Virus record (IMG/VR): IMGVR_UViG_3300048589_001254
Coordinates: 1-36,712 of that record
Source of the DNA: a virus
Direction: 5' to 3' (one strand)
Length of the DNA: 36,712 nucleotides
Shown: in pieces, positions 3,936-36,292 of the stretch
Numbering within the stretch: position 1 is the first letter of the stretch
Layout of the letters: each line of letters opens with the position of its first letter
The notes under the pieces: model-generated
The model's input: only the letters and a program-made list of their open reading frames with translations
The model's database searches: none
What the model was told of the DNA's origin: nothing
Made by a program: the position numbers and the translations under genes

Positions 3936-4059
3936 CTCATTTAGAGGATTCAGTACTCCTGCTGCATCTCGTTCAAAATCTTACGGCAGCAGCCCCGTCA
4001 CCACAACGGCTAAGTTCAAAAAAAATCCAGCAAAAACAAATAGCTATGGTTCACTTGAT

Positions 4060-4599
4060 AGGTTCCTATTTGCTAGGAGCCTATGAGTTAGACGCCTAGC
4101 TGTTAGGAGCCTACAGAGTAGGAGCCTAGCAACTGAGAGCCTATGAAGTAGGAGCCTACGAAATAGGGGTCTGCGAAGTAGGTGCCTACGAAATAGGGGT
4201 CTGCGAAGTAGGAGCCTGCGAAGTAGGAGCCTACGAAGCAGGAGCCTACGAAGCAGGAGCCTACGAAGTAGGAGCCTACGAAGTAGGAGCCTACGAAGCA
4301 GGAGCCTACACAGTAGGAGCCTACACAGTAGGAGCCTACGAATTAGGAGCCTACGAAGCAGGAGCCTACGAAGTAGGAGCCTACGAAGTAGGAGCCTACG
4401 AAGTAGGAGCCTACGAAGTAGGAGCCTACGAAGTAGGAGCCTACGAAGCAGGAGCCTACGAAGTAGGAGCCTACGAAGTAGGAGCCTACGCAGTAGGAGC
4501 CTACGAAGTAGGAGCCTACGAAGTAGGAGCCTACGCAGTAGGAGCCTACAAAGTAGGGGCCTGCGAAGTAGGGACCTACACAGTAGGGACCTACAAACT
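4060..4599. repeat. Array of 36 tandem 15-bp units (iteron or centromere candidate)
   Basis: The whole gene-free stretch is a tandem array with consensus AGGAGCCTACGAAGT, starting every 15 bases from 4060 with no insertion or deletion; a partial unit follows at 4600. Each unit holds the half-sites GTAGG and CCTAC in alternating inverted orientation (GTAGG-AG-CCTAC-GAA-GTAGG), so the array is a ladder of overlapping dyads. The first six or so and last three or four units are degenerate and the centre is nearly identical, as expected if unequal exchange keeps the middle uniform. It lies directly downstream of the parA and ParB-like genes, where plasmids such as F keep a repeated centromere, and next to an A-rich stretch (about 4016-4050). 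It may be parS, an iteron origin, or both. The GTAGG half-site recurs in the dyad upstream of parA. Confidence 0.92.
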
Positions 4600-5254
4600 A
4601 GGACTCAGATGTATTTACTGAGTTTTTCCACGGGTCGCGGAGATAAAAGTATGTGCCAGGCTGGTTCTCTCGACGCCCCAGGTTGCCTACAACATGCACG
4701 GTGAACATACCGTACTGCTCACCAAGCTTTCGATACTTCGTAAACGTAGCGCGCGCCCTGTCTCCAAGAGCGTCACTAATCATCTTCTTCGTGAAAAAAA
4801 CTCTGGCACAACCTGTCCGAGCCGCCTCCGCATACAAGAAGCGATAAAAATGAAAAAAACGCTCCTGCGACCGAGGCAGGCCTCCCAATGTCGGGTCAAA
4901 CCAATATCTAGCTAGAAAACGCTCATCCCTCGTAAGATCCACCATTCGAGGGACATCAGGCAGTAATGGTGACTTACCGACGGTCACAGGTGGCGCACGT
5001 AGCGGCGATCGAAATGTAGCGCCCTGGAGCGGCTTGTTAGTCTCAACCTTTGGAGACACAACTGCCTTGTCCTTAGCTATATCCGCAGGCGGATTTTCCG
5101 CTTCAGCGTTGGTGCCCGGGGCGGCCTCTGCCTCCTGTACCGAAACCGTGCCATCTTCAGAACTGCTCGACCTATACAGCTTTTCATATTCCCGAGGAGT
5201 CAAACGCCCGGGTGCTTTACGCGTAGCGGCGAAAGGATTTCCCTTGATAGCCAT
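4598..5254 (-). CDS. ParB-like centromere-binding protein candidate
   Basis: The 218-residue product starts at the ATG two bases after the parA stop; the last codons of parA (GCG GAG GGG TAA) supply its ribosome site, so the two are translationally coupled. Residues 1-30 are basic (MAIKGNPFAATRKAPGRLTP), a short arm such as partner proteins use to touch ParA. Residues 30-105 are low-complexity linker. Residues 108-205 look like a compact winged-helix domain (TRDERFLARYWFD..., FFTKKMISDALGDRARATFTKYRKLGEQYGM, then strands). No classical ParB CTPase motif (GERRxRA) is present, so it would be an atypical centromere binder or a replication initiator. Its stop codon falls inside the last repeat unit, placing gene and array in direct contact. 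The function is inferred from position and fold impression. Confidence 0.6.
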   Translation of the reverse strand: MAIKGNPFAATRKAPGRLTPREYEKLYRSSSSEDGTVSVQEAEAAPGTNAEAENPPADIAKDKAVVSPKVETNKPLQGATFRSPLRAPPVTVGKSPLLPDVPRMVDLTRDERFLARYWFDPTLGGLPRSQERFFHFYRFLYAEAARTGCARVFFTKKMISDALGDRARATFTKYRKLGEQYGMFTVHVVGNLGRRENQPGTYFYLRDPWKNSVNTSES

Positions 5255-5256
5255 AT

Positions 5257-6264
5257 TTACCCCTCCGCCTTCAGGATCCTGCCCCAAACCTCTTTCACGA
5301 GATCATAGTAATCCCGCGCAAGATCACTCTTCGGGTCATACTCAGGGGCTGACTGTCGCATCGTAAGTGCCTCTTGACCACGCACTGCGCGACGAATCGC
5401 TGTATGAGTAACTAGATCTGGATGCTGAGTAAGATATGCTCCATAGATTTGCGAGCTGAGCTTGTTTTTTTCGAGAAGAGTGGGAACTAAAATGACGTTA
5501 TCCCACTTAATATGCATGTCCTTCTGGAAATCGAGCGTCGTCGAAAGATTCGTCGAGAGCGCTTGATAACTTCCAAGATCACACCCGATGGGAGAAATCA
5601 CGACATTAGCTGCAGTGAGGGCATTCTCGATCAAGAGATTCCAGTTCGGGCTGTTATCAAAAATAATCACTTGGTAGTCGTTCGCGAGAGGACCGACCAC
5701 CTGTTCTTTGAGAACGAATTCCCGCCGCTTTGTGTCGCGAATAAATTTTTCTAGAGGACCTAGCCCCGGTGTCTCCGGGATAATATCGAGCGTGGGCAAT
5801 GGTGTTTCGCGAATCACCTTCTTCAAGGGAGATTTTCGCAGCAAAACATCCGCCAGCCCCTTGTGCGTCGTCACTTCCTCTAGGGACTCAATCGCAATCG
5901 GATTGAGAGCAAGATCCGTCACCGTTCCCTGGATATCTAGGCCGATAATCAGGGTCTTAATGCCGTGCAAGGCTAAGAGCCGCCCCAATGAGTAGCTCAG
6001 CGTACTTTTGAGTACTCCTCCCTTCGCGGTATATACGCAGATCACCCGCAGGGACTTGGGTGGCTCAAGAAAACCGTACTTAGCGCCGATCGCTGGCACT
6101 TGAGCAAGTGTCCACTGCCGCACCTCTATACGACCGCGGTGAATGCGACGTGCCTTAGGAATGTGTCCCGCCTTCTCAGCGGCAATTAGCGTATTAGGCG
6201 CAACCGAATTCATCTGAAACAGCTTGTGCAGGTCAGTGCTGGTGAACAGATCTTTTTCGAGCAT
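5257..6264 (-). CDS. parA: ParA family partition ATPase with N-terminal MerR-like HTH
   Basis: This is a 335-residue ParA of the HTH-bearing type. Residues 8-65 (DLHKLFQMNSVAPNTLIAAE...HRGRIEVRQWTLAQV) form a MerR-like helix-turn-helix. The deviant Walker A motif is KGGVLKST (81-88) with the signature lysine 81; the second motif is GLDIQG (108-113) in place of the usual DPQG; Walker B is VIIFDNSP (199-206). ParA ATPases move DNA cargo over the nucleoid, and HTH-bearing members also repress their own operon. The start is the ATG at 6264, supported by the duplicate control region at 6791-6930, in which the same first 11 codons recur (MLEKDLFTSTD here, MLEKDLVTSTE there). No strong ribosome site precedes it. 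It forms an operon with the downstream ParB-like gene and repeat array. Confidence 0.9.
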   Translation of the reverse strand: MLEKDLFTSTDLHKLFQMNSVAPNTLIAAEKAGHIPKARRIHRGRIEVRQWTLAQVPAIGAKYGFLEPPKSLRVICVYTAKGGVLKSTLSYSLGRLLALHGIKTLIIGLDIQGTVTDLALNPIAIESLEEVTTHKGLADVLLRKSPLKKVIRETPLPTLDIIPETPGLGPLEKFIRDTKRREFVLKEQVVGPLANDYQVIIFDNSPNWNLLIENALTAANVVISPIGCDLGSYQALSTNLSTTLDFQKDMHIKWDNVILVPTLLEKNKLSSQIYGAYLTQHPDLVTHTAIRRAVRGQEALTMRQSAPEYDPKSDLARDYYDLVKEVWGRILKAEG

Positions 6265-6372
6265 GCTTCACACACCGCCATTGTAGGTATTTATTCTTAA
6301 TTGTCGGTAAAACCTACAATGCCAGTTTCTGTCCTAACTGTAAAGAAGGTGAGCTCGGCTCGATGATGAGCC
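6233..6372. repeat. Copy A of a 140-bp direct repeat: parA leader and first codons
   Basis: This 140-base block matches 6791-6930 at a constant offset of 558 bases with no gap, at roughly four identical bases in five by eye. It covers the first 11 codons of parA, the start codon, the dyad at 6279-6321 and upstream sequence including a shared CTGTAAAGAA. Nothing else in the window resembles it. Confidence 0.88.
6279..6321 (-). promoter_or_regulatory. Operator-like dyad upstream of parA
   Basis: CATTGTAGGT (6279-6288) and ACCTACAATG (6312-6321) are perfect ten-base inverted arms whose starts are 33 bases apart. A third, imperfect half-site GTCGGT lies at 6303-6308. On the minus strand TACAAT in the proximal arm could be a -10 box, with GACA 16 bases upstream, so a bound protein would block transcription. 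The GTAGG/CCTAC core is the same as in the 15-bp repeats, which suggests that one protein of the operon binds both. Promoter assignment is tentative; the dyad itself is plain. Confidence 0.65.
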
Positions 6373-6375
6373 TGC

Positions 6376-6822
6376 TCATTTGTCTATCGCTCTCTCAGTA
6401 AGTTCAGGCTTGCAGCGTTGCAGAGCCTCGTCTAAATGGGGGCCATCGCTGCCACGAAAAACAACGCCGATGACGATTTCCCCCCGATAAAAAACCTCCA
6501 AGAAGTCAGGATCGGCCGTGCTGCCGTCGTCGAAAACCCATAGCTGGCGCTCCTCGCTCCAAGAGCCCTGGAGCGTTTCCTGCCGGCGGCCGTTGTGTCC
6601 CTGGGGCTCAAGCAGCCAGCAGAGCTTCACCTGGCCGGTAGCGACATGAAACATCACCGTGCCTTCGTAGGGGGCCTCGGTCTCGTCGTCGCGAAACATC
6701 GCGGTGAAGCGATAGAACGGCGGCCCGTCACGCCCAGCTTTCATGCTCATACCTGAGGCGCTCCCCGAGACGCGCGACCTCGTCGTCGGCTCAGTGCTGG
6801 TGACTAGATCTTTTTCGAGCAT
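6376..6822 (-). CDS. Unknown protein expressed from a duplicated parA leader
   Basis: From the ATG at 6822, the position equivalent to the parA start, this is 148 residues. The first 11 (MLEKDLVTSTE) are nearly those of ParA (MLEKDLFTSTD); the rest is unrelated to ParA. The body has strand-rich text such as FYRFTAMFRDDETEAPYEG, TGQVKLCWLLEP, GSWSEERQLWVFDDGS and EIVIGVVFRGSDG, suggesting a small beta-sheet protein; I recognise no family. The gene body lies between the two 140-bp direct repeats, ending three bases before copy A, so it looks like a cassette that captured the parA promoter and start. A GTG three codons upstream is the alternative start. Under a parA-type operator it could be co-regulated with partition; its role is unknown. 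Confidence 0.65.
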   Translation of the reverse strand: MLEKDLVTSTEPTTRSRVSGSASGMSMKAGRDGPPFYRFTAMFRDDETEAPYEGTVMFHVATGQVKLCWLLEPQGHNGRRQETLQGSWSEERQLWVFDDGSTADPDFLEVFYRGEIVIGVVFRGSDGPHLDEALQRCKPELTERAIDK

Positions 6823-6930
6823 GACACGCACACCACCATTGTTGGTATTTCTTGTTTCTGATGGAAAAAACCAACAATGCCAGGTTCTGACCTATCTGTA
6901 AAGAAAGTGGCCGCGGCTCGCTGATGAGCC
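6791..6930. repeat. Copy B of the 140-bp direct repeat (second parA-type leader)
   Basis: Ungapped counterpart of 6233-6372. It supplies the start codon, first 11 codons and control region for the 148-residue protein gene. Relative to copy A the central base of both dyad arms has changed in a matched way, keeping the symmetry. Confidence 0.88.
6837..6879 (-). promoter_or_regulatory. Variant operator-like dyad upstream of the 148-residue gene
   Basis: CATTGTTGGT (6837-6846) and ACCAACAATG (6870-6879) have the same 33-base spacing as the parA dyad but with A-to-T and T-to-A changes at matching positions of the two arms, so each remains a perfect ten-base inverted repeat. The middle is much changed. 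A regulator specific to GTTGGT instead of GTAGGT would see this site. Confidence 0.62.
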
Positions 6931-7071
6931 GTGCATATGCGGCGCCGAATGCTAAACTGAGGCACTCTTCAGGACGAATTCTCGGCATGGTTATGGTGAG
7001 AAAACTGAGCATCGCGCGTGCTGTTTACACGCTAGAGACGCCGCCTCCAGCCCGTCGAATTTCGGCCGGCC

Positions 7072-8079
7072 TTATACTGACCATTCTTGCTGTTGCCACC
7101 GGTCTAGCAGCCGCTCGCATGAGAGGCTGACGGTGTAGGCCGCCTCTGGCGCCACCGTGTGCGTCGCTGATGTCACGTTCCAAAGACCATCGACGGCCGC
7201 GCGAAACCCCGAAAGTCTGAGCCTGCAGTCCGCAGAAATCCTCGGGTCGCCTTCTAGCTCAAGCCTTCCCGTAACGCCCTGCTTCAGCGTCAGAGAGAGC
7301 TTAGCGGTGGCTGCCTGCTCAGCCCGCTCTCTAGACGAAAACACCTCCCGAAAGCGAAAAACGGGCTTTCCGCTGCCGACGACGACCTTCTCGCTTTGCG
7401 CAGATGTGAGATCGAAGGCCTCCGCTTCAACCGCCCCATAAAGCGGCCTGCTCACGAAATCAAAATCCCAAGAGAGAACCTTGCCGCCCAAGGCCTCAAT
7501 CTCGACAACAGGCAGCGCCTCGCCTGACACGCTCAACCCAGAGCCCTGCGGCATGACAAGCACCGTCTCGTCCTGAATCTTGAGCGAGAGCGCGTGCTCG
7601 CCGGCAAGCCTCGAGAGAAAGTGGACGGCCGACTCGTTTCTCTGGGAGATCTCAAAGACTGGCACGCGAGAAAGCTCGGCCGAGGCCTTCACCTTAAGCC
7701 CGTAGGCTCGGCCGAGCTCGTCCAAAACTCCTTTGAGGTCTTGTGCCGCATAAAGCCTGGAGGAGGCGGTTTTCAGATCTTTTAGGGTGTCAAAGCCCTT
7801 GCCGGTAAGGCGCATAACGCCGCGGCTTGAGATCGACACCTCGTCGACAAAAAAGCTCCCCATGGGGGTGAGGCTTTCGCCCCAGCCAAGCGCCACGCTG
7901 ATCCGGTGGCCTCTTTCTGGGACAGCGAGCCGGCCGTCTGAGTCGTCAAAGACAAGCTCGAGTTGATCGGAGAGAAGACCACGCTCGTCTCTCAGGACAA
8001 GCCGCTGAAGCCTCTCGCGGTAGACCCCTTCTTTCTCCTCGCCGTCGATTGTGACAAGAACCCCCGGCTTTAGTCCCAA
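7072..8079 (-). CDS. D: Tail protein gpD (P2 late-control D family, baseplate hub)
   Basis: At 335 residues this is close to P2 gpD and is the last gene of the tail operon, as in P2. The family forms the hub at the centre of the baseplate (gp27-like), on which the gpV spike sits. Family text includes LGWGESLTPMGSFFVDEVSIS, RGVMRLTGKGFDTLKDLKTASSRLY, ISQRNESAVHFLSRLAGEHAL and WNVTSATHTV. The start is TTG overlapping the last codons of the gpX gene by ten bases. No terminator with a T-run was seen after its stop. Confidence 0.88.
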   Translation of the reverse strand: MGLKPGVLVTIDGEEKEGVYRERLQRLVLRDERGLLSDQLELVFDDSDGRLAVPERGHRISVALGWGESLTPMGSFFVDEVSISSRGVMRLTGKGFDTLKDLKTASSRLYAAQDLKGVLDELGRAYGLKVKASAELSRVPVFEISQRNESAVHFLSRLAGEHALSLKIQDETVLVMPQGSGLSVSGEALPVVEIEALGGKVLSWDFDFVSRPLYGAVEAEAFDLTSAQSEKVVVGSGKPVFRFREVFSSRERAEQAATAKLSLTLKQGVTGRLELEGDPRISADCRLRLSGFRAAVDGLWNVTSATHTVAPEAAYTVSLSCERLLDRWQQQEWSV

Positions 8080-23475: not shown

Positions 23476-23771
23476 AAGACTTCTCCCCGGGAAAGCTCAG
23501 AGAGGGCGTCGTCGATGGCCCGCTCGATCAGCTCTTGGACCTCTGCCGGCTCGCCAAGCAGCGCTGCCGTCGGTGCCACAGCCGCCGGGATGGCAAGCAG
23601 CCGAGCCTTGGCGGCCAGGGTCACGCTGGCCCAGAGCCTTTTCACCTCGTCGACCGGGACGAGCTGCCGCTCACGCTCTCTTAGCTCGAGCTCGAGCTTG
23701 TCGGCTCTGACCTTGGTGAGCCTCACCTGTTCCTGCGTCAGCTCGTCATCAGCGGCTTCGCCCTTTTTCAA
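23472..23771 (-). CDS. Terminase small subunit, Nu1-like, short
   Basis: A 99-residue protein directly upstream of the large subunit. LTQEQVRLTKVRADKLELEL, RERERQLVPVDEVKRLWASV, LAAKARLLAIPAAVAP is the oligomerisation and gpA-binding region of Nu1-like proteins. Lambda gpNu1 has 181 residues with an N-terminal winged helix for cos recognition; that domain is absent here. The TTG start overlaps the recombinase stop (TTGA), so the two are translationally coupled. DNA recognition may be provided by another protein. Confidence 0.78.
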   Translation of the reverse strand: MKKGEAADDELTQEQVRLTKVRADKLELELRERERQLVPVDEVKRLWASVTLAAKARLLAIPAAVAPTAALLGEPAEVQELIERAIDDALSELSRGEVF

Positions 23772-25363
23772 TGGCTCACCCCCCTGTCGCGGCTATAGGT
23801 GACCCTGAGCCTCGGGAGCCACTCGGTCTCGACCTCTTTTTCGTCGATTTTGAGGTAGGCGTAGGTCTGCTCGATGTTCTTGTGGTTCATCTTCATCTGA
23901 ATGGTGCGGATGTCGACGCCGGTCTCGTAGGCAAAGCGCGCCCAAGAGACTCTGAGGCTGTGGGCTCTTCTGAGCTTGGCGCCGGGGACTCGCGGCGTGA
24001 TGCCTGCGCGGTCGAAGACGGCGGCAATGCGCAGACTGCTGGCAGCCAGAGTAATCGGCCGGTCTTTGGTAAGTGGCGTCGGGTGGAACAGATAGGACTC
24101 GGGCGGATCCTCGGCCAAGTAGCGATCGATGTAGGCCTCGACGGCCTCGGCCACATAGCGCGAGACAGAGACGATGTAGCGATCGGCGTTGGCCTTGCTG
24201 GCAACGGAGAGAGTCTTGCCGCGCCCTGAGGCGACGTAGTCGCACTTTCGAAGCGACAGCAGCCCAGCGTGCCGCATGCCAACCCCCGACAGCAGGTAGA
24301 TCGCAAGCAGATCCCGGTGGGCCTTCCAGCGCGCACCCGCATTGAGGGAGGCTGCCTCGCGCAGCATGTCCTCGGCTGCGGCGATCACCTTGGCGGTTTC
24401 GTCCTTGGTCAGAGGGTCAGTGAGGATTTGGCGCTCCACACGCGGGACCTTGATGCGCGCGAGCGGGTTTTTGGCAATCGCCCCCTCGCCTACACAAAAC
24501 TCGAGAAAGGAGCGAAGCACCTTTACCTCGCCGGCCACCGTGGTCGTCTGCTTGCCGACGGCAAGGCGGTGCTCCTTGAAGCGAACGGCCCTGTCGAGAG
24601 TGATCTTCTCGACCTCGTCGAGCCCCTCGCCGAGGACATGCCGGCAGTAGGCTTTAAAGGTCGCCAGGTGCTTTCGGTAGAGCTTGGCGGTGTTGACCTT
24701 CCTCTGGCTGGCAATGAAAAGCTCGACAAGCCCGTCGAGCCGCTCCTTGGGGCTCGTCAGGGCTTTGATCTCGCCTGGGGGAGAGGAAGGCGCCTGGAGC
24801 GCGGCAACAGCCTCGGCCCTGGCCTTGGCCCTTAAGTCTTTTGTGTAAGCGTGAACGCACGACACCGAGACGCCGTGCTTGGCTGCGATCTCGCGCAGCG
24901 GCTTGCCGTCCATCCGTTCGCGGCGAAGCGTCTCGATAAACTCCGCCCCGTTGGTCTCGACAAGGCTTGGCCCCCGTCCGCCGCGGGATTTTTGGGCGGC
25001 AGTGCTCAGGATGGCCTGAAGAAAACCCGTGGTGCTCTGCTCGTGGGGGGAGAGCAGGACATTTTCCTTGAGCAGCCTAATCGAGACGCCGTCGAGACGC
25101 CTTTTCTCGTAAGCCCGAGCAAACTCGGCGTTGCAGATCCCCATAGCCTCGAGACTGTCGACGACGATGCGCGAGTTGTCCTCGGCCGAGGAGAGCAGCG
25201 TGCGAAAGGTGGTTGTCCTTGCAAGGACGACCCGCACCTGGTGGAGGCGCTCATCAAGATGCTGGAGGATGCGGCCGGGGTGGCGCCTTTCGTCCTGCTC
25301 GCGGTAGATGCGCTTCATCTCGTCGAGCGAACCGCCCAGCTCCACAAAGTAGATCGTAAGCAC
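23768..25363 (-). CDS. int: Tyrosine recombinase/integrase with a long N-terminal extension
   Basis: A 531-residue protein whose last 320 residues are a phage-type tyrosine recombinase: core-binding domain from about 205 (RLDGLVELFIASQRKVNTAK), catalytic Arg364 (SGVGMRHAGLLSL), probable Lys390, His468-x-x-Arg471 (HSLR), His494 and nucleophile Tyr503 (MNHKNIEQTYAYL). Residues 1-200 are extra: a helical part and an HTH near 152-178 (GKPLREIAAKHGVSVSCVHA). It would integrate and excise the element, or resolve multimers. Oddly it is the first gene of the structural operon and is coupled to the terminase small subunit. GTG start with GGAGG ten bases upstream; ATG codon 16 is an alternative. Confidence 0.88.
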   Translation of the reverse strand: MLTIYFVELGGSLDEMKRIYREQDERRHPGRILQHLDERLHQVRVVLARTTTFRTLLSSAEDNSRIVVDSLEAMGICNAEFARAYEKRRLDGVSIRLLKENVLLSPHEQSTTGFLQAILSTAAQKSRGGRGPSLVETNGAEFIETLRRERMDGKPLREIAAKHGVSVSCVHAYTKDLRAKARAEAVAALQAPSSPPGEIKALTSPKERLDGLVELFIASQRKVNTAKLYRKHLATFKAYCRHVLGEGLDEVEKITLDRAVRFKEHRLAVGKQTTTVAGEVKVLRSFLEFCVGEGAIAKNPLARIKVPRVERQILTDPLTKDETAKVIAAAEDMLREAASLNAGARWKAHRDLLAIYLLSGVGMRHAGLLSLRKCDYVASGRGKTLSVASKANADRYIVSVSRYVAEAVEAYIDRYLAEDPPESYLFHPTPLTKDRPITLAASSLRIAAVFDRAGITPRVPGAKLRRAHSLRVSWARFAYETGVDIRTIQMKMNHKNIEQTYAYLKIDEKEVETEWLPRLRVTYSRDRGVSH

Positions 25364-32496: not shown

Positions 32497-32787
32497 CATC
32501 AAGTTTGCCAGCGGCCAAACCCACTGGACGAAGCCCCAAGCCAGGGTCTTACCGTAGATCCACTGCGCATTGCTCCCGCTTGACAGCGAGAAGACGCGCA
32601 GCGAGCTAAGATCGCGCCCCGGATAGTTGTGGAAAAACTCATTTTCCACGTCCGAGGAGAGCCCTCGTTGTCGAGTTCGAAGCTCGGAACGAGGACGCGC
32701 CGCGTCAGACCGAAGAGGAGCCGGTCGCCGAAGGTTCGCTCGAGAACCCGTTTGAGGTACCTCTGGTCATTATCAGCGCCGATGACC
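32497..32787 (-). pseudogene. Degenerate internal fragment of a patatin-like phospholipase gene
   Basis: This stretch matches 35561-36014 inside the intact patatin gene at roughly nine identical bases in ten by eye, in the same orientation. About 165 bases of the intact gene (about 35677-35842, including the part coding the catalytic aspartate) are deleted, and both gene ends, including the nucleophile region, are missing. Matching landmarks are ATCCACTGCGCATTGCTCCC and TTTTCCACGTCCGAGGAGAG. It explains the gap between the acidic protein gene and the exported proteins. Confidence 0.85.
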
Positions 32788-32889
32788 TAAGCTCTCGCGC
32801 AGTGGCGCTGGCGTGCACTCACAGCTGTTATCTGGCACCGAAACAGCCCTGCTCGTTAAAGCATTTCGCGCCACAAGAGCATCGTCGGC

Positions 32890-35359: not shown

Positions 35360-36292
35360 CTATCCGCCCAAAAAATGCGTCTCAATCCATCCGACAGCCT
35401 CTCCAATGTCCGCTTCCCGAGCAAGATGCATCACCTCATCCAGACGTGCCGAATCATCAGTGGCTATCCGGTTTGGCATCGCGTTTTCAAAGCGAAAATA
35501 GGCTTTTTCACCGAGAATCTGTCGGCACTGGTAATCGGCAATGCCGACGTTGGCGTCGATCATCAGGTTTGCCATCGGCCGAGCCCACTGGGCGAAGCCC
35601 CAATCCAGGGTCTTGCCAGAAATCCACTGCGCATTGCTCCCGCTCGACAGCGAGAAAACGCGCAGCGAGCCTAGATCCTGGCGTCCAATGTCGGGGTTTA
35701 TGGCAATCGCCACGGCCGCCATCGCCGGGTTGTTGCACCCTACCCCACCATCGACATAGCCCTGGTAGCTCGGAAAGTAGGTCGGCGCTGCGCTTGAGCG
35801 CAAGGCTACATCAACCAGCCGTTCCGCCCCGTCCGAGTCAGCCCCAGGATAATTGTGGAAGAACTTCATTTTCCACGTCCGAGGAGAGCCCTCGTTGTCG
35901 AGATCGAAGCTCGGAATCAGCACGCGCCGCTTCAGACCCGAGAGCTGCCGGTCGCCGAAAGTTCGCTCGAGAACCCGTTTGAGGTAGCCTTGGTCATAGT
36001 CAGCGCCGATGACCTTGCCCATATCCTGTAGGTCGTCGCACCAAGAGTCGTCAAAAACCTTGGCCGCGTGATTTTCGAAGAAAGTGACGAGCTCGCTTGC
36101 CCGCATGCCCGATGCCAGGGACATGGCGCTGATGCCGCCAATCGAGGTACCTGCAAAAAGACGTACCGAGGGCAAGAACGCAGGCACGGCGTCCGCCAGA
36201 CGAGCCAGAAGCACCGCTTGATAGGCTCCGCGGATTCCGCCCCCATCAAGGGACAAGATCCGATAGGGCCGCATTCTCTGCTCAAGACTCAT
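35360..36292 (-). CDS. Patatin-like phospholipase
   Basis: 310 residues with all patatin landmarks: oxyanion loop DGGGIRG (16-22), nucleophile elbow GTSIGG with Ser50, and catalytic Asp181 in YVDGGVGCNNP. These serine-aspartate lipases release fatty acids from membrane phospholipids. CapV effectors of CBASS are of this type, but no cyclase gene is near. No signal peptide, so cytoplasmic. ATG start with GAGGAG upstream, eight bases after a small gene on the same strand. A broken copy of its middle lies at 32497-32787. Possible roles are membrane attack in defence, a lysogen trait or host-lipid use. Confidence 0.88.
   Translation of the reverse strand: MSLEQRMRPYRILSLDGGGIRGAYQAVLLARLADAVPAFLPSVRLFAGTSIGGISAMSLASGMRASELVTFFENHAAKVFDDSWCDDLQDMGKVIGADYDQGYLKRVLERTFGDRQLSGLKRRVLIPSFDLDNEGSPRTWKMKFFHNYPGADSDGAERLVDVALRSSAAPTYFPSYQGYVDGGVGCNNPAMAAVAIAINPDIGRQDLGSLRVFSLSSGSNAQWISGKTLDWGFAQWARPMANLMIDANVGIADYQCRQILGEKAYFRFENAMPNRIATDDSARLDEVMHLAREADIGEAVGWIETHFLGG

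Follow-up and report, generated by a model that had tools for sequence, protein, structure and literature searches.

A candidate ParA operator duplicated ahead of an orphan gene and altered alike in both half-sites in a virus genome

The stretch of DNA analysed here, a virus record of 36,712 bases that we call the window, carries phage structural genes together with parA, a parB-like gene and an iteron array, as well as a second copy of the parA promoter region in front of an orphan open reading frame (Table 1). The same genome that holds ParA and the centromere-like array also encodes a tyrosine recombinase with a Phage_integrase match (23768-25363), which may serve phage integration or plasmid dimer resolution. 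Two parts of a patatin-like phospholipase gene (35360-36292), 117 and 150 nt long, recur about 3 kb away at 88-90% identity, the repeats lying at 32497-32788 and 35561-36015 and possibly representing a decayed duplicate. A distant DNA search with region 4500-8000 gave no match in phages or plasmids.

Table 1. Position, strand and main characteristics of the features of the window.
Feature	Positions	Strand	Characteristics
Iteron array	4059..4603	.	About 35 units of 15 bp in tandem (GTAGGCTCCTACTTC on the - strand), immediately following the parB-like gene
parB-like gene	4598..5254	-	Between parA and the iteron array
parA, 335 aa	5257..6264	-	N-terminal winged-HTH part and ParA/SopA-type ATPase
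parA promoter-operator (copy 1)	6265..6372	-	Upstream of the parA start codon; repeat, with TTTACA-N17-CATTGT in both copies and four relatives
Operator dyad 1	6279..6321	.	CATTGTAGGT-N23-ACCTACAATG (+ strand order), perfect 10-bp arms, before parA
Orphan ORF, 148 aa	6376..6822	-	First 11 codons copied from parA; alternative start 6750
Second promoter-operator (copy 2)	6823..6930	-	Upstream of the orphan ORF; repeat; upstream synteny of the relatives kept
Operator dyad 2	6837..6879	.	CATTGTTGGT-N23-ACCAACAATG, perfect 10-bp arms, matched A/T change in both
Structural genes			Terminase gpA, lambda-family portal, capsid, tail sheath, tape measure, GPD-type baseplate hub

ParA was matched by Pfam AAA_31 and by the PHROG ParA-like family, with SopA as the best NCBIfam match, below the cut-off. 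Its structural model (pLDDT 86.7) aligned with P1 ParA (3ez2; Z 29.3, 3.5 Å, 326 aligned) over the full length including the N-terminal part, and with ParA2 of V. cholerae (7npe; Z 30.9, 3.8 Å, 320 aligned). By prediction, the fold is that of a ParA protein, with an N-terminal part of about 70 residues that is shorter than in 3ez2 and 7npe. The modelled winged-HTH part in front of the Walker ATPase domain points to type Ia. A deviant Walker A motif with the signature lysine is a further criterion of type Ia ParA proteins, and ParA carries it as KGGVLKS (residues 81-87), of which K81, G82, G83 and K86 are invariant in 13 of 13 homologues. The long-spacer inverted repeat in the parA promoter likewise has type Ia geometry, with arm centres 33 apart in the two window copies and 34 in the four relatives.

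Blocks 6233-6372 and 6791-6930 form a direct repeat of 140 nt at an offset of 558, which aligns without a gap and is identical at 114 of 140 positions, the other 26 differing. The original prediction of a duplicated parA control region, aligning gaplessly at this offset, is borne out. Read in the direction of parA, each copy has TTTACA-N17-CATTGT, the 10-bp dyad and 14 nt to the ATG, CATTGT being the outer portion of the dyad's left arm, and the duplicate extends into the first 11 ParA codons, a detail absent from the original prediction. In both dyads 23 nt separate the arms and the arm centres are 33 apart, a value that denotes the start-to-start distance of the 10-bp arms (29 for the hexamers GTAGGT/ACCTAC). 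The symmetric change predicted for the two arms, from GTAGGT/ACCTAC to GTTGGT/ACCAAC, was found as described: an A is replaced by T in the TAGG of each half-site, and the arms of dyad 2 are still perfect. Exact CATTGTWGGT occurs in the window only in these four arms, with no further dyad of this kind, and none of 200 dinucleotide shuffles reached a dyad as good as that of copy 1. Between the copies, 2 of 20 arm positions differ vs 22 of 88 in the rest of the non-coding block, which is not significant (Fisher p 0.23); for the copied ParA codons the figures are 2/32 vs 24/108 in the rest of the block (Fisher p 0.04).

The 11 copied ParA codons run in frame into the orphan ORF downstream of copy 2. 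This ORF had no match in Pfam, PHROGs or NCBIfam and none in plasmids, and its sole match in viral contigs was its 100% identical twin. Its frame scored best of the six for codon usage and has a GC3 of 0.70, like the phage genes. The lower divergence of the copied codons would weakly favour initiation at the copied ATG, with 6750 as a possible alternative start. An empty site was seen in the related contig L005, in which 6907-7026 aligns with both window copies and nothing resembling the orphan ORF lies between. Copy 2 retains the upstream neighbour and copy 1 retains parA. Since four relatives have a single promoter and no orphan ORF, copy 2 arrived with the insertion.

Close relatives of ParA were found in five IMG/VR contigs, one of which matches the window at 100% over 13,960 bases and is hence not independent; the only further copy of the matched change lies in this contig. 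The other four (L006, L009, L010 and L011, with the 700 bases upstream of parA reading the same in L006 and L011) encode a ParA that is 97% identical, at a nucleotide identity of 89-90% in the three compared. All four have the left arm CATTGTAGGT, and three share the right arm of dyad 1. The right arm of L010 reads ACATACAATG, so that an asymmetric arm change, which the original prediction had named as evidence against itself, is present in one of the four relatives. The arms were kept while the spacers diverged, 10 of 10 pairs being intact in three of the four relative contigs. The spacing, predicted to be kept at 33, is indeed the same in the two window copies, but the arm centres are 34 apart in all four relatives.

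With L009, L010 and L011 as outgroups, 10 of the block changes fall on copy 2, 10 on copy 1 and 6 could not be placed; the two arm changes are both derived and lie on the copy-2 branch, with zero on copy 1. Another 11 states are common to both copies and differ from these three outgroups, which dates the duplication, or else the sequence that the duplicate came from, to after the split from the relatives. A mosaic origin of the copies from donor and recipient halves was considered and rejected, as the branch-specific changes overlap along the block. At the level of sequence, the duplication, the insertion, the two dyads and the polarity of the change are established. The matched arm change is derived and unusual; it is no proof of selection.

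The product of the parB-like gene is probably a centromere-binding protein. At the limits used it matched nothing in Pfam, PHROGs or NCBIfam, a search of phages gave no match either, and its model was of low confidence (pLDDT 52), with no PDB match at E <= 0.001. The 15-bp unit array at 4059-4603, in which each unit carries the short dyad GTAGG-CT-CCTAC, is probably the centromere. Arrays are present in relatives too, where the units end in CCTAT and not CCTAC; that of L005 comprises about 19 units. The A and G of the iteron GTAGG are invariant in 35/35 units of the window and 19/19 in L005. Nearly all iterons share GTAGG with the arm of dyad 1, and GTTGG is absent from the array of the window. 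This common word prompted the idea of a ParB contact with dyad 1 that the matched change would abolish, which we retained as no more than a lead: 12-13% of random 10-mers have a 5-mer in common with the array, and by inspection operator and iteron words did not match in distant homologues. In three aligned relatives the ParB-like protein is 71-74% identical, vs 97% for ParA. Because ParA and the arms are conserved together while the ParB-like protein and the iteron end have diverged, ParA is the likelier of the two to occupy the arms.

TTTACA-N17-CATTGT is kept in all six sequences (the two copies and four relatives) and is untouched by the arm change. As a -10-like element CATTGT is weak, with three of six consensus bases, and a consensus scan found another weak promoter-like site and not this one. 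In the right arm, TACAAT, a possible -10 box of copy 1 in the consensus scan, becomes AACAAT in copy 2. The matched change could possibly lower ParA affinity, promoter strength, or both. Small operator changes can matter, since four RepA proteins bind only their own operators, as reported in PMC4492784; by analogy, an altered operator specificity of copy 2 is a fair inference, and its predicted escape from ParA control is plausible.

Taken together, we propose, with a probability of roughly 55%, that a type Ia-like parA gene is autoregulated through copy 1, its operator-promoter, and that copy 2, captured with the orphan gene, is still an operator of the ParA type, in which ParA control is altered and probably weaker. 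In this model each arm would receive one winged-HTH domain of a ParA dimer, with three helical turns between them, and the promoter would be blocked. In this lineage the orphan gene was inserted together with the duplicate operator-promoter and the first 11 ParA codons, and copy 2, with dyad, spacing and promoter-like elements kept and one base per half-site changed alike, would now drive it. ParA binding, the direction of the affinity change and the expression of the orphan gene are steps that we infer.

The origin of the matched change itself was considered with simulations in which 140 bases received 10 to 16 random substitutions. An altered dyad that was nonetheless perfect arose in 0.5-0.7% of them and, given exactly two arm changes, a matched pair in 1.8-2.4%, a low chance which concerns one case picked after the fact and is suggestive only. 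An unconstrained dyad remained perfect in 8-21%, so that the symmetry of copy 2, taken by itself, argues weakly for function. The expectation that drift would not alter both arms together agrees with the low chance under random substitution and leaves aside template switching, which would do so neutrally; for the further proposal that the second site was selected for another regulator, nothing was found in favour. Two independent chance substitutions in an operator freed of constraint would agree with the rate of change, 2 of 20 arm positions being about average for a branch total of 10 to 16 in 140, but given the rarity of matched pairs we regard them as improbable. Neutral homogenisation by template switching, in which a mutation arose in one arm of copy 2 and was then copied into the second arm during replication, is a tentative alternative that we consider possible yet rather unlikely. 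The symmetry would then reflect a mutational mechanism and not selection, and copy 2 may lack function. According to two articles, template switching homogenises short inverted-repeat arms, with a bacterial data set cited there favouring transversions (PMC8604942), and compensatory double changes can stem from one such event (PMC8794818); the copy-2 arm change is an A/T transversion, and the matched pair is obtainable in one or two steps without selection. On the other hand, the 23-nt spacer is long for events that have short spacers in PMC8604942, and by inspection there is no spacer inversion and the arm identity stops at the arms instead of continuing further inward.

Re-tuning of dyad 2 for a different repressor, such as another replicon's ParA or a regulator of host or phage origin, could account for the survival of perfect symmetry and spacing, and RepA-type operators are described as replicon-specific in PMC4492784. 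We nevertheless judge it improbable to the same degree as chance substitution, as the ORFs scanned included no other recognisable ParA, the scans of viral contigs turned up no further GTTGGT dyad of this group, and a single base of ten differs per arm. The dyad could also act as an RNA hairpin in the leader, with the matched change as a compensatory pair, and the 10-bp stem folds well in copy 1 (z -4.2), L009 (-5.2) and L011 (-4.2). This explanation is slightly less probable still: copy 2 and L010 are unremarkable (z -1.4 and -1.2), the left arm falls in the -10 region and would be transcribed only in part if TTTACA-N17-CATTGT is the promoter, and the dyad geometry suits a ParA dimer.

The pair represents two natural operators in one genome, one matched base apart per half-site, for which outgroups give the direction of change, and thereby allows changes in the specificity of ParA-type operators to be tested directly on a small scale. 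It also bears on whether symmetric changes stem from selection or from template switching, and the duplication shows how a cargo gene can capture a partition promoter. The symmetric half-site change might, although we hold this to be quite unlikely, have given a new specificity, with the cargo gene answering to a different ParA (e.g., that of a competing replicon) or escaping ParA; if true, a phage-plasmid cargo gene would report partition state or competition.

Beyond the close relatives, one scan of genome contigs found 24 ParA relatives, none of more than 53% identity. The nearest nine GTDB homologues are 44-53% identical over most of the length, and a plasmid ParA of Piscirickettsia salmonis 49%; these homologues have a second gene after parA and mostly 11-bp iteron arrays, compared with 15-bp units here. 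In several the array lies inside the second gene, and the upstream dyads are different or undetectable. In L025, L026, L027, L028 and L030 the 11-bp arrays fall within the reading frame of the second gene, so that the repeats are also translated. By eye, the ParA partner looks like a canonical ParB in L031 and L032, and in L025-L030 it is a different wHTH-like sequence. L029 has an iteron-like array upstream of parA (upstream of 3989) and not downstream. As to the dyads, those of three of the nine (L028, L029 and L032) were reached by at most 5 of 200 shuffles, the other six had none that stood out from the shuffles, and all three distant viral homologues were without a dyad of score >=7. A scan of viral contigs for the dyad pattern gave 11 stretches, four of this group and seven of low GC without a parA-like leader, which look unrelated as judged by their GC and flanking sequence; with a second pattern nine were obtained, five of this group and four unrelated-looking by the same measures. 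Generality of the dyad in the wider ParA family is therefore not shown by these homologues.

Among the reports listed in our literature searches, none of a duplicated parA operator in a phage turned up. The closest likeness is to the type Ia promoters of F, P1, P7 and N15, which, according to PMC8465637, have a perfect long-spacer inverted repeat with centres about 33-34 bp apart that overlaps or adjoins the parA promoter, and a ParA with an N-terminal winged HTH, as at the present locus. There, the primary ParA site of the F plasmid is given as two hexamers in perfect inverted repeat, separated by a 28-bp spacer and 34 bp from centre to centre, and P1 and P7 are proposed to have a similar arrangement. 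In contrast to these promoters, the arms described here differ in sequence and measure 10 bp and not 6 bp, and where the F operator has overlapping degenerate motifs (PMC8465637), the element recognised at our locus is the 10-bp dyad. A further parallel, predicted on our side, is repABC of Rhizobium leguminosarum, where, according to PMC4492784, a ParA-type protein represses its own operon via an imperfect palindrome, and the RepA proteins of four plasmids bind their own palindromic operators and not each other's, with no cross-binding between paralogous operators. These divergent operators belong to different plasmids, each with its own RepA (PMC4492784), whereas here one ParA faces two operators in one genome. 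Compared with the type Ia promoters, the locus finally differs in that a duplicate of the operator precedes an orphan gene.
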